From Haloactinospora alba (GTDB lineage Bacteria > Actinomycetota > Actinomycetes > Streptosporangiales > Streptosporangiaceae), in contig NZ_VFQC01000001.1 in NCBI RefSeq assembly GCF_006717075.1, positions 1,969,501 to 2,033,500 of the forward strand: a stretch of DNA of 64,000 nt, read 5' to 3'. Of this stretch, positions 12,167 to 18,829 are shown one piece after another (the stretch's first letter is position 1; each line of letters starts with the position of its first letter). Below the pieces are notes generated by a model, which saw nothing but the letters and a program-made list of their open reading frames with translations, was not told the origin of the DNA and ran no database searches. A program made the position numbers and the translations under genes.

Positions 12167-12700
12167 TCAGCGGGTGGGCGGGGCCGTCCAGGAGTAGTAC
12201 CGCATGAGCCTGCCGCTGGGCGGGAACGGCTCCTCGGCTGTGCAGGCGAACCCGTGAGGGAAGAAGACGTGGCGCTCCATGTGGGCACGGGCGGGATTGT
12301 GCGACTCCATCCGCACCCTGATCGCGGAGAAGCGCGGGTCGTGCTGAGCGCGGGCCAGGTAGGCGGCCGCGGCCTCCCGGCAGTAGCCAGAGCGCCAGTA
12401 CGCACGGATCAGCATGCAGCTGAGTTCAGGGATACCGTCCTCCCCGGGTGAGAGGCCCAACAGCCCGATCACGTCCCGGTTCCCGCGCAGTTCGATGGTC
12501 GCCATGCCGTATCCGTGCTGCTGGTGGTCGTCGGCCCAGCCCTGCAGGCGCCGTCCCATGCTCTCCCGGTCCCACGCGGTCTGGGTGCCCACGTGTTCGA
12601 GTGCGGCGGGATCCTCGTAGAACTCGCGCAGGGGGTCGAGATCGGTGGCCTGCGGCACGCGCAGCAGGAGCCGCTCGGTGGTGATCGGCAGGGCCAGCAT
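12167..12700 (-). CDS. GNAT N-acetyltransferase in the P450-peptide locus
   Basis: A 177-residue GCN5-related acetyltransferase of the RimJ/RimL-like type (ITTERLLLRVPQATDLDPLREFYEDP at the N-terminus; acetyl-CoA-binding region around RAYWRSGYCREAAAAYLARA; SHNPARAHMERHVFF). It starts 18 bases after the stop of the P450 gene, with AAAGGA upstream, so the two are one transcription unit. In a P450-modified peptide pathway it could acetylate the free N-terminus of the released product, as N-acetylation is known in biarylitides. That link is inferred from context; stand-alone GNAT roles (for example resistance or ribosomal-protein acetylation) cannot be excluded. Confidence 0.85.
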   Translation of the reverse strand: MLALPITTERLLLRVPQATDLDPLREFYEDPAALEHVGTQTAWDRESMGRRLQGWADDHQQHGYGMATIELRGNRDVIGLLGLSPGEDGIPELSCMLIRAYWRSGYCREAAAAYLARAQHDPRFSAIRVRMESHNPARAHMERHVFFPHGFACTAEEPFPPSGRLMRYYSWTAPPTR

Positions 12701-12718
12701 CCTCGTGTTCCTTTTCCA

Positions 12719-14017
12719 TCAGCCGCGGGGGTGGAAGGCCAGGTGCAGTCCGGCGGGGGTGAGCGCGCCGTCGGTGTCCAGCCGGTAGGGCTGGGAGTCG
12801 GGGCAGGACAGGCGGTGTGTCCGCGCTGTCATCGCCAGCACCAGGACGAGTTCGAGGGAGGCCAGAGAGGCCCCCGGGCACAGCCGCGGCCCGGCGCCGA
12901 AGGGCAGGTAGGCGCCGGTGGTTCCGGGTGAGGAAGCCTCGAGCCAGCGCTCGGGTGCGAAGGTGTCGGCCCGGTCGTGGTGGCGCTCGTCGCGGTGGAG
13001 CAGATAGGGCGAGACCATGACCCGGTCGCCGGGGACCAGTCGGTGCCCGCCCAGGTGGGTGGGTTGGGCCACGACGCGGGAGGTCAGCCAGTTCGGCGGG
13101 TACAGGCGCAGGGTCTCGCGGACGAAGGCGTCGGCGGTGCGCAGGCGCGCGACGTGTCCGGCGTCGACCTGGTGCCCGTCGTGGGGCAGCGCCGACGCCT
13201 CCGCGGCGATGTGCTCGGCCCACTGGGGGCGGCGGGCCAGGTTCAGCAGCAGCCAGGCACCCGCGCGGGTGGGCATCTCCTACCTGCTGGCCACCAGGAT
13301 GGTGGCCAGCAGGTAGGAGATGGGTGGTCCGGGAGGTGTGCCGTGGTCCGATGACGCCTGGATCATGGCGCTGAGCAGGTCGGGGCCCCTCGCGCGGCCC
13401 TGGGTCAAACGCCGTTCCATCACCGCGCCGATGCGCCCGGCCAGGGCGTTGATGCGGCTGCGCATGCGTAGCCGGGTTGCGGTGGGCACCCACCACGGCA
13501 GGTACAGGGTGCTGGGGGGAATGTTGTTGCGGGTCCGGGCCAGGGCGGCCTCGGCGTGGGTGAGGGTACCGGCGTCGGCGCCGAAGCAGAAGCCGGCACC
13601 GATGCGGGAGAACGTGCGCCTGAGTCGGGGCATGACCTCCTCGGGACGGCCGCGGGGCCAGTCGCGGGCCAGGGCGGCGGCCTCGGCGGCGACCATGGGG
13701 GTGTGCTGGATGGTGCCGTTATGGCGGAAGCAGCGCCTGGCCGCGTTCAGGCTCTCGGGCAGCAACGTGCCCGGTGTCAGGGCACGGCGCACCCCGCGAG
13801 GAAGCGGGAACGCCCCCTGCGAGGGGCTGAACTGCGCTCCGGTGCGGCGGAACACCTCCCGGGTCAGCTCCGGCCCCGCCGCGACATAGACGTGCGGGGC
13901 GAACTCCCAGAAGTCGCCGTAGCGCACAGTACCCTGGGTCAGGAAACTGATCCTGTCCGCCTTGTACTGTGAGGCGGACAGGATCTCTCCGGTGTCCGGT
14001 GCAAGGTGTTGGTCCAC
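12719..14017 (-). pseudogene. cytochrome P450 with one in-frame amber codon
   Basis: Read through the stop, this is a full-length P450 of about 431 residues. The N-terminal part (GTG at 14017 to TAG at 13282-13280) carries the substrate region and the start of the I-helix (PPISYLLATILVASR). The C-terminal part continues in the same frame with EMPTRAGAW, the K-helix ExxR (ETLRLYPP) and the haem loop PFGAGPRLCPG with its cysteine ligand. Only the TAG interrupts it. The stop lies inside a perfect inverted repeat, and deleting three bases would give ASREMP at the place of the usual A-G-x-E-T-T. The start follows AGAAAGG. The gene lies 88 bases after a 24-codon peptide gene and 18 bases before an acetyltransferase. 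It is probably inactive as written unless the stop is an artefact or is revertible. Confidence 0.85.
13274..13320. repeat. 21-bp perfect palindrome in the P450 gene
   Basis: The arms (plus strand ATCTCCTACCTGCTGG... at 13275-13295 and its exact complement at 13301-13321) flank a five-base loop AGGAT. On the minus strand the first arm encodes ISYLLAT of the I-helix and the second arm contains the amber codon. Coordinates are accurate to one or two bases. Confidence 0.85.
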
Positions 14018-14105
14018 GGCGACCGAACCTTTCTTGTACGCATTGGCCGGCCGCCGAACGCGGCCCTCCGCATGGTTTTTCACGTCCGGAACCGGAACAG
14101 GTTCG

Positions 14106-14180
14106 CTACCTCCAGTAGAATGGGTAAGCTCCGGCCTTCGCGGCACGGACATCACGCAGGAACTTCTTGATAGCGGTCAT
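14106..14180 (-). CDS. 24-residue aromatic-tailed peptide, candidate P450-RiPP precursor
   Basis: A tiny gene just upstream of the P450, in the same direction. It has an excellent ribosome site (AAGGAGGG, eight bases before ATG 14180) and ends at TAG 14108-14106. The leader is basic and helical (KKFLRDVRAAKAG), and the C-terminal end AYPFYWR concentrates four aromatic residues. Short leaders with a C-terminal aromatic core next to a P450 are the hallmark of biarylitides, cittilins and atropopeptides (tryptorubin type), where the P450 forges aryl-aryl, aryl-ether or C-N bridges. The core would be within YPFYWR. No other maturation protease is visible nearby. The gene is an independent call from the sequence; no database comparison was possible. 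Confidence 0.72.
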   Translation of the reverse strand: MTAIKKFLRDVRAAKAGAYPFYWR

Positions 14181-14460
14181 CTGTTCCACCCTCCTTATAT
14201 CTGCGGAGCGAATTCTCCTTCCCTGGCCATAGCTGCCCAGGACATGCCGCGCGAAACATCGGGCCACAATGGTCCACATTCAAACAGGAGCGCGCGCAGC
14301 AGATTTTTCCTTTCCCGTTCCGGTTGTTTTCCGATGGGTATGATGTCCGGTCGCGTGTCGCTGCCTCTGCATTATTCTCTCTTTTTGTGCTTATGGGAAA
14401 CGTTGACCTCACGCTGGCCGTATCCGGCGGTTCCTCCGACGGGAAGGAGTGATCAGGTAA
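14181..14460. promoter_or_regulatory. AT-enriched leader region of the P450-peptide locus
   Basis: This 280-bp stretch has clearly lower GC than its surroundings, with A/T runs at 14302-14335 and 14370-14395. It lies directly upstream of the minus-strand peptide gene and must contain its promoter. No consensus -35/-10 pair stands out; GAATAAT on the minus strand near 14372 is one candidate -10. Low GC suggests foreign origin. Confidence 0.45.
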
Positions 14461-15263: not shown

Positions 15264-15989
15264 CTAGGGCAGGCTCGCGACGAGTTCGGTGGTGTTCTTC
15301 CGGCACCCCGTGTAGAACGGGACCTCCAGCCGGGTGTGTCTGCGGGCCTCAGCCCCTCGGAGGTGGCGCATCAGGTCAACGATCCGGTACATCTCCGGGG
15401 CCTCGAAGGCGAGGATCCACTCGTAGTCGCTGAGCGCGAAGCTGGAGACGGTGTTCGCGCGGACGTCGGAGTAACCAGCGGCCATCTTGCCGTGCTCGGC
15501 CAGCATCGTCCGGCGCTCCTCGTCGGGCAGCAGGTACCACTCGTAGGAGCGGACGAAGGGGTACACGCACAGGTAGTCCTGGGGCTCCTCCCCGGCGAGG
15601 AACGCCGGGATGTGGCTCCGGTTGAACTCGGCCGGACGGTGCAGGCCGACCGCCGACCACACCGGCGTGCTCAGCTTCCCCACACGGGTCCGGCGGAAGG
15701 CCGTGTACATCTCCTGCACGGCCTGCGGGCTGTCTCCCACCCACCAGAACATGATGTCGGCGTCGGCCCTGAAGCCCTGGACGTCATAGGAGCCGCGGGT
15801 GGTCACCCCCTTCTCGGCCGAGCTGTCGAACAGTTCCGCCAGCTCCTCCGCAGCGGCGCCGCGGTCGGTTCCACCAAGGTCACCGACCTTGAACACCGAC
15901 CACATGGGATACCGCAGAAGCTCGTTCAGCTTCTCCGGATCAGCGCTGGCAGTGTGTTCCCCTGTCGCCACGTTCGTCTCCTCACTCAT
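15264..15989 (-). CDS. hemQ: coproheme decarboxylase (HemQ/ChdC)
   Basis: A 241-residue chlorite-dismutase-fold protein of the actinobacterial HemQ group. It performs the last step of the coproporphyrin-dependent route, oxidative decarboxylation of coproheme to haem b with hydrogen peroxide. [12 protein letters not shown] at the N-terminus, [43 protein letters not shown] (contains the likely catalytic tyrosine in SYEWY) and [10 protein letters not shown] at the C-terminus mark the family. It starts 19 bases after the hemY stop on the same strand, so both are one operon. Confidence 0.93.
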
Positions 15990-16008
15990 GGGTGTTCGCC
16001 GTTCGTCC

Positions 16009-17430
16009 TCAACCGGTCAGGCCGTGCCTGTCGAGAATCCGTTGCGCCTCCCGTTCGGCGCTGGCAACGCAGGCCGGTATGCCCACTCCCTCGTAAGCCG
16101 CTCCGCACAACGCCACGCCCTCCCTGTCCGAGAGCGCGTCCCGCACCCGGGCGATCCGCTGCTGGTGCCCGACCGCGTACTGCGGGAGCGCACGGTCCCA
16201 GCGGGTGACCCGGCGGTCCACGGGCGGTTGGGACACACCGCAGATCTCGGCCAGGTCGGCGGTGACGCGCTCGGTGAGCTCCTCGTCGGAGAGTTCCGCC
16301 ACGGCCTCGCCACGGGACTGCGCGAGGGAACAGCGCACCAGGACCATCCCGGTGTCCGGATGCTTGTCGCGCAGTTGTTCGGCGAGCCACGGCCACTTGG
16401 TGCTGCTGAACGTGGCGGCTTTGATCGACCGCCCCTCCCGGGGGCCGACGAGGAAGCCGCTTCCTGCCGGTGGCCGTGTCACGGAGGCAGCGGGGTAGGC
16501 CAGGGTCACGATGGTGGTACTCGCGTAGTCGATCCCGGCCAGCTCACCGGAGGCCGCCGGAACGACCGGTCGCAGGAGCCGCGCTGCTTCGGGAGCGGGA
16601 CAGGCGAGCACCACACTGTCCGCGTCGAGCTCCCAGGGGTGCTCCTCCGGTCCGACCAGCAACTGCCACCCTCCGCCGACCGCGCGCAGCTCCCGCACTG
16701 GGGCAGAGGTCTCGACCGCCGCGTCCGCCTGCTTGGCAAGAGTGTCGACGAGAATGGCGAGGCCGCCGCGCAGAGTGGCGAAGGCCGGACCGGAGCTCGC
16801 TTCCGCCGCTTGCTGGGCGGCGGCCCTGCGAGCGATGCCGAACAGGGAGCGTTCGCTGCGGGCGAGGGGTGCGATACGGGGGAGTGCGGACTCCACGGAC
16901 AGCTCCCCGGCCTTACCGGCGTACACCCCGCCCAGGAGCGGCCCCACCAACCGGTCCACGACCTCCCGGCCCATCCGGGCTCCGACGTAGTCGCCCACCG
17001 AGGCGTCCTCCGCCACGCGGGTGGAGGGAAGGACCCTGTCCGCGGCAGCACGCAGCACGCCCCTCCAGGACACCACTCCGCTTCGCGCGAGGCTGGTGAG
17101 GCTGCCCGGGATCCCCATCACATGGGGGCGGGGGAACGAGCGCAGCCTTCCCCTGCTGTAGATGGCGGCGGGTCCCGGAGCCGGGTGGGCGATCCGCTCC
17201 TCCAGCCCCAGCTCCGTCAGCAGCCGGAGAGCCTCCGGACGTCGGGTCAGGACCGACTCGGCTCCCGAGTCCACGGGCACACCCGCCACCGGGGAGGTAT
17301 CCAGCTTCCCCCCGATGCGTTCCGTGCTCTCCAGCACCGTGACCTCGGCGCCGCCGCGGGCGAGGCGATAGGCCGCGGTCATTCCGGACACCCCGCCCCC
17401 GACCACGGCGACGCGTGGTTTCCTCTCCAT
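16009..17430 (-). CDS. hemY: coproporphyrinogen III oxidase / protoporphyrinogen oxidase, FAD-type
   Basis: A 473-residue FAD amine-oxidase-fold enzyme (HemY/HemG type, now often CgoX). The dinucleotide-binding motif [21 protein letters not shown] opens the protein, and the [17 protein letters not shown] region near the end completes the FAD site. [20 protein letters not shown] is specific to porphyrinogen oxidases. In organisms with HemQ it oxidises coproporphyrinogen III to coproporphyrin III. It is the first gene of the hemY-hemQ pair; hemE lies 343 bases upstream on the same strand. Confidence 0.93.
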
Positions 17431-17773
17431 ACCCCCAGCTTTCCAGACAACAGCGGCGGACGCGGCTCGCCCCCTGCAACCGCTGCCGCGGACCGCGCTG
17501 CCGAGCTGTTCGTTCCCGGTACCAGCCTACGCGGGCGACGCACGTGACCTGCCCGCCTCGGGAGACGCGGAGATGGGCGACGGGGGCGCGCTGCCCGCTG
17601 GTGGGAGAACGCGGACGGCTGGCCGGTGCTTCCCGGCGTCCCGCGCGCCTCGGGGATCGGCCCGGGAACACCTCCGAGCGCTCACCGGCCGGGAGACCGC
17701 CCGCGCGCTCCCTCCGGCGGCGAGGCCCAGTCACACGCGGGAAGCGCCGGACCGGCCCGGGGGCCGGGAGTGT
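17431..17773. other. 343-bp gap between hemE and hemY
   Basis: Contains no supported gene. It is uniformly high-GC and arginine-rich in all frames. It should hold the promoter of hemY-hemQ on the minus strand, but no motif is distinct. Confidence 0.45.
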
Positions 17774-18829
17774 TCAGCCGCGGGCTGTCTCCTCGTGCAC
17801 GAAGTCGGTCAACCGTGCCAACGCGTCCGGGTCCGTGTCCGGAAGCACACCGTGCCCGAGGTTGAACACGTGCCCCTCGGCAGCGCGCCCCTGGGTGAGG
17901 ATGCCCCGGGCCCGCTCGTTGACGACCTCCTCCGGTGCGAACAGCGTGGCCGGGTCGAGATTCCCCTGCAGGGCCGTACCGCGCCGGACGCGCTGCGCCG
18001 CCTCGCCCAGGGGGACCCGCCAGTCCACGCCCACGACATCGGCCCCGGCCTCGCTGAGGGAGGGCAGCAGTTCGCCCGTGCCCACCCCGAAGTGGATACG
18101 CGGCACGTCCAGGTTGGCCAGCTGGTCGAAGATCCAGGAGGCATGCGGCAGCACCGACTCCCGGTAGTCGGCAGCGCTGAGCGCGCCCGCCCAGGAGTCG
18201 AACAGCTGCACGGCGCTCGCCCCGGCCGCGACCTGAACCCGGAGGAACTCGGCGGTGATGACGGACAGGCGGCGCATGAGCCGGTGCCACAGTTCCGGCT
18301 GGCCGTACATCATCGCTTTGGTGCGCTCGTGGTTCTTGGAGGGGCCGCCCTCGATCAGGTACGACGCCAGGGTGAACGGGCCGCCGGCGAACCCGATCAG
18401 CGGGCGCTCCCCGAGTTCGCCGACGAGCTCGCCGACGGCTTCGGTGACGTACCAGACGTCGTCGGGTTCGAGGTCCCGCAGCTGTCCGACGCCGTCAGCG
18501 TCCCGGATCGGCTGCTCCACCACGGGACCCACACCGGCCTTGATGTCGATCCCGACCCCGATGGCTCTCAACGGCACGACGATGTCACTGAAGTAGATGG
18601 CGGCGTCGACACCATAGCGACGCACAGGTTGCATCGTGATCTCGACGATCATGTCAGGGCGCGCGCACGCCTCCAGCATCGGCACGTCCGCGCGGACTCT
18701 ACGGTACTCGGGCAGAGAGCGCCCTGCCTGGCGCATGAACCACACGGGGGTGTACGGCACTGGAAGGCGCCGACAGGCGCGGAGGAAAACGGAATCTTGG
18801 AGCGTCACACCACCGATCGTGCCACGCAC
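17774..18829 (-). CDS. hemE: uroporphyrinogen decarboxylase
   Basis: A 351-residue enzyme that removes four carboxyls from uroporphyrinogen III to give coproporphyrinogen III. The two family signatures are present: [16 protein letters not shown] (about residues 28-43) with the substrate-binding arginine, and the [17 protein letters not shown] region near residue 145. [18 protein letters not shown] holds the catalytic aspartate. [16 protein letters not shown] closes the active site. GTG at 18829 follows GGGAG; GTG at 18808 is also possible. Divergent from the DUF3000 gene, as in many actinomycetes. Confidence 0.95.

Follow-up and report, generated by a model that had tools for sequence, protein, structure and literature searches.

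A probable minimal P450-RiPP cassette with a Tyr-x-x-(Tyr/Trp) core and an interrupted P450 in Haloactinospora alba

Introduction

The described systems closest to the locus analyzed here pair a very small peptide with a cytochrome P450. In the cittilin family, a 27-amino-acid precursor with the core YIYY is encoded just 5' of the gene for the P450 CitB, and the myxobacterial cittilins also involve a methyltransferase (PMC8708641). Biarylitides (bytA/bytO) come from a five-residue aromatic precursor (PMC13417212) that is cross-linked by one P450. N-acetylated biarylitides are known, and the enzyme responsible for the acetylation is unknown (PMC8708641). Atropopeptides, including tryptorubin, are encoded by two-gene precursor/P450 cassettes, sometimes with acetyltransferases nearby, and are defined by a KSLK-like leader motif and an xWxxxx core (PMC11450843). 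Micitide 982 and other genome-mined P450 RiPPs (He et al. 2023) are described as peptides with a Tyr-Trp link installed by one P450 (PMC12299652, PMC13383641).

We analyzed a stretch of 64,000 nucleotides of the H. alba genome (the window), in which a gene for a short peptide with an aromatic tail is followed by genes for a P450 and a GNAT acetyltransferase. Our main conclusion, which we consider probable, is that these genes form a minimal cassette of the P450-RiPP type and represent an apparently undescribed Y-x-x-[Y/W] subfamily, within a P450 clade that also contains the cittilin type, with an optional N-acetyl cap, and that the window P450 was recently lost.

Results

The original prediction placed a 24-codon peptide gene with a ribosome binding site, a P450 gene and a GNAT gene in this part of the window. 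All three were found where they had been placed, and we could add that they lie on the minus strand (Table 1). The P450 frame matched the Pfam p450 model with an E-value of 4.9e-37 when its single stop codon was read as X, and it has the heme-cysteine motif, positioned after that stop. The GNAT matched Acetyltransf_3 with an E-value of 3.5e-19; its nearest solved relative by sequence was PA3944, a weak match (E 4.6e-4). Comparison of the precursor gene with its homologue in Nocardiopsis quinghaiensis (locus L061) gave a dN/dS of about 0.27, a value that comes from small counts over 24 codons. The codons for AYPFYW differ between the two only synonymously. The predicted core had been YPFYWR or part of it; the silent changes put the core within AYPFYW, and its exact boundary is an estimate. 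Just upstream in the window (15267-18829, minus strand) are genes matching uroporphyrinogen decarboxylase, a flavin amine oxidase (HemY-like) and chlorite dismutase (HemQ-like). Heme synthesis genes thus adjoin a heme enzyme in the window; the N. quinghaiensis locus is without these flanks.

Table 1. Features of the precursor/P450/GNAT locus in window coordinates.
Feature	Position	Strand	Details or basis
Precursor peptide gene, 24 codons	14106..14180	-	MTAIKKFLRDVRAAKAGAYPFYWR*; homologues in 9 other loci
Precursor division: leader MTAIKKFLRDVRAAKAG, then probable core AYPFYWR	14106..14180	-	cleavage point predicted
Shine-Dalgarno AAGGAGG, 9 nt 5' of the precursor ATG	14190..14196	-	sequence
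Cytochrome P450, probable aromatic cross-linker, interrupted	12719..14017	-	Pfam, tree, comparison with L061
Predicted GTG start of the P450	14017	-	AAGAAAGG upstream, and L061
In-frame TAG at codon 246 of the P450 frame, in the I-helix	13280..13282	-	reading frame; comparison of relatives
Perfect inverted repeat containing the TAG (arms 13274-13296 and 13300-13322)	13274..13322		23-nt arms, 3-nt loop
Heme-binding motif FGAGPRLCPG, 3' of the TAG	12872..12901	-	sequence
GNAT acetyltransferase (Acetyltransf_3), intact, 18 nt past the P450 stop	12167..12700	-	Pfam

Of 343 genomes searched in the family, few contained a close P450. When 347 genomes of the order were searched with a profile, nine loci (plus one split match) stood far above the remainder, separated from it by a gap in E-value from about 1e-173 to 1e-69. 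Among the matches listed in a scan of GTDB genomes, there were at least nine related loci in at least seven species: one each in N. quinghaiensis, Allonocardiopsis opalescens, Nonomuraea cypriaca, Actinomadura logoneensis and Microtetraspora fusca, and two each in Actinomadura oligospora and A. harenae. The two cassettes of A. oligospora (L064/L066) and of A. harenae (L067/L068) fall on different branches and have different cores. No relative of the P450 was found in viral contigs.

The peptide gene is kept together with the P450. A homologous ORF of 20-25 amino acids lies just upstream of the P450 in all ten clade members, and a loose rule detected no such ORF when applied to 18 control P450s that do not belong to the clade, 13 of which fall on the terpene-type side of the tree. 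Among 20,000 random first-order sequences, the loose pattern occurred 22 times (0.1%) and the strict pattern never; these patterns were picked after the alignment had been seen, and the counts indicate rarity and not a formal P value. The distance from precursor to P450 ranges from roughly 30 to 210 nt. A short aromatic-tailed precursor paired with a dedicated P450, the broad description of a P450 RiPP, therefore holds for 10/10 members against 0/18 controls. This conserved pairing supports the predicted precursor/enzyme relationship, and the homologous peptide genes that the original prediction expected beside orthologous P450s were present at all of them.

The ten cores (AYPFYWR/G, AYWYYW, AYLVYPW, AYPPYPW, AYSHYPWW, AYRSYYL, AYLFYYG, PYPTWT and PYTSWS) share a first Tyr and a Tyr or Trp at +3, both invariant (n = 10), and the intervening residues vary freely. 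Beyond peptide, P450 and GNAT, there was no neighbor common across genera, and no protease, transporter or regulator common to the loci, so none of the neighbors can be assigned a protease or transporter role. This arrangement fits a minimal RiPP and adds no further support for one.

The ten members formed a single clade with support of 100/100 in a tree built from 49 P450s, and the terpene-type P450s (albaflavenone or pentalenene models) lay across another 100/100 branch, so that the window P450 does not cluster with them. The P450 had been predicted to lie outside the terpene clade, as it does; it groups instead with cittilin-family loci. The larger clade, also examined in a second, quick tree of 52 rows, takes in L017, L023 and L028, which have precursors scoring above the cut-off of the NCBIfam cittilin_RiPP model (NF038373), as well as several groups whose aromatic precursors gave no model match. 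The window clade is a subclade distinct from the cittilin-type loci in a tree that was built without CitB itself, and its exact sister is uncertain because long branches meet there. At seven of the 16 sister loci scanned, the same loose rule found no peptide. The sister P450s L011-L016, L018-L020, L026, L073, L074, L077, L079, L081, L082 and L090 have short precursors ending in GGMYTYWNFxN, GGRYHWxx, SGRYIYWPYHxx, GGRYIWIP or AGRYPWRH, and none of the representatives scanned matched an NCBIfam model.

The I-helix of many P450s contains an acid-threonine pair, at the position of which the clade P450s have QEM or QEQ. An AlphaFold model of the P450, built from seven sequences, was set aside because its quality was mediocre (mean pLDDT 69) and ordinary P450s were its closest structural matches. 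The ApyO model outscored both terpene models for the window P450 and that of L061, and the reverse was true for L021 and L027. Assignment to the aminopyruvatides was rejected: the window P450 scored 113.9 bits against a cut-off of 525 bits for ApyO (NF050147), and the window core ends in R where a C-terminal Asp is expected in the precursor.

The window clade resembles each of the described families in part. As in the cittilins, a short precursor stands just 5' of one P450 and the core opens with Tyr followed by further aromatic residues, but the precursors are shorter, the cores are Y-x-x-[Y/W] rather than YIYY, and a GNAT takes the place of the methyltransferase. The precursors of the window, L061, L062, L063, L065, L066 and L068 did not match NF038373, and none of the window-clade precursors tested matched a curated model. 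Biarylitides likewise result from one P450 acting on a tiny aromatic peptide, but by their published definition the precursors here are too long (PMC13417212). The two-gene layout with a nearby acetyltransferase recalls the atropopeptides, whereas the KSLK motif is missing in the window and the second residue of AYPFYWR is not W (PMC11450843). The resemblance to biarylitides and atropopeptides noted in the original prediction thus does not amount to membership in either. Three Actinomadura cores end in Y-P-W, the ring implied by the synthetic route to micitide in PMC13383641. The aromatic spacing in the window clade differs in being invariantly i, i+3, and the clade may overlap with families listed by He et al. 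2023.

Discussion

By analogy with cittilins, atropopeptides and biarylitides, we propose that the basic leader (about residues 1-17) docks on the P450, which would oxidatively join the first core Tyr to the Tyr or Trp at +3 (Tyr19-Tyr22 of AYPFYWR in the window) and perhaps also bond the Trp that comes next. Because no protease is common to the loci, the leader would be cut off by a housekeeping peptidase encoded outside the cluster. Where the GNAT is kept, it may acetylate the freed amine of the core. A fuller account, which we regard as evenly balanced between right and wrong, is an undescribed RiPP subfamily that combines an invariant Tyr-x-x-(Tyr/Trp) ring with a cluster-encoded N-acetyltransferase, has P450s without the I-helix threonine (QEMPTRAG), occurs in few actinomycetes and decays piecemeal.

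The short ORF might instead be the leader peptide of an attenuator, in which Tyr and Trp codons sense the supply of aromatic amino acids and control the P450, with no product being made. Its aromatic codons cluster at the end of the ORF, as they do in known attenuators. However, there was no minus-strand terminator between peptide and P450, and the intergenic RNA folded no better than shuffled sequences in the window, L061 and L068 (z = -0.56, 0.16 and 0.24) and slightly better in L062 (z = -1.30). With neither terminator nor structure, with a variable gap, with conservation of the leader half, which an attenuator would not require, and with cittilin-family precursors beside related P450s, we dropped this reading as very improbable, and we interpret the ORF as a RiPP precursor. 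The role of the GNAT is less settled. An intact copy stands immediately 3' of the P450 in the window and at the loci of A. opalescens (64% identity), A. harenae (copy 1, 52%) and A. logoneensis (44%). Fragments remain in N. quinghaiensis and A. oligospora copy 1. Our reading of the translation at A. oligospora copy 2 and A. harenae copy 2 is that just a start-like remnant precedes the next gene, and the Nonomuraea and Microtetraspora loci have no GNAT. This distribution takes four changes by parsimony. With an intact gene in only 4/10 members, the GNAT is accessory, and the original claim that it caps the released N-terminus was not established. The same pattern of decay would suit a GNAT unrelated to the peptide, present by chance or for self-protection. 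We think this rather unlikely, given that the same GNAT stands directly 3' of the P450 at four loci in three genera, where no other neighbor is common across genera; acetylation of the core is our preferred, analogy-based role for it.

The remaining alternative concerns the stop codon. Where its relatives carry CAG (Gln), the window P450 has AGGTAG (AGC AGG TAG GAG ATG, vs AGC CAG GAG ATG in N. quinghaiensis), a gain of 3 nt that renders the 23-nt inverted repeat perfect; copying of the opposite arm would turn C into AGGT. Template switching extends identity between imperfect repeat arms and is a known type of mutation in vivo (PMC3820800, PMC8604942). Because the change to a perfect repeat is its known signature, the comparison suggests a template switch within a quasi-palindrome, from one arm of an imperfect inverted repeat to the other, as the most likely cause of the inactivation. 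The dN/dS of the P450 against L061 was 0.31 before the stop and 0.28 after it, and from this likeness we judge the loss to be recent. Similar selection on both sides would equally be seen if the pair were real, the P450 active and the living strain intact, with the TAG an assembly or sequencing error; hairpins are difficult templates, and the sequence comes from one assembly, of one genome of this genus. Against such an error, which we consider improbable, the change is exactly what opposite-arm copying would produce. Readthrough of the stop would still leave the enzyme with an additional residue in its I-helix. We therefore favor true inactivation: with a TAG in frame before the heme cysteine, the P450 has presumably lost its function and the window copy is probably dead and would make no product, a correction to the original interpretation. 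A sister P450 frame in Streptomyces sp. P3 (L090, 4001-5193) also has a stop, and on that basis decay of such cassettes may be common.

In the literature searched, we found no paper on the core strings. Some matches look like unrelated chance strings, and the supplements of genome-mining papers from 2023-2024 may list the cores. The interest of these results is chiefly for RiPP specialists, and they overturn nothing. They add a subfamily of precursor/P450 pairs, small and open to testing, that was missed by every curated model used here, with ten natural cores for one type of enzyme. The GNAT of some clusters is a candidate for an N-acetylation step and deserves attention because the enzyme that acetylates biarylitides is the missing one (PMC8708641). 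The copy in H. alba appears to be a fossil of an apparently undescribed branch, and a clear example of how a template switch between repeat arms has apparently inactivated a biosynthetic gene.
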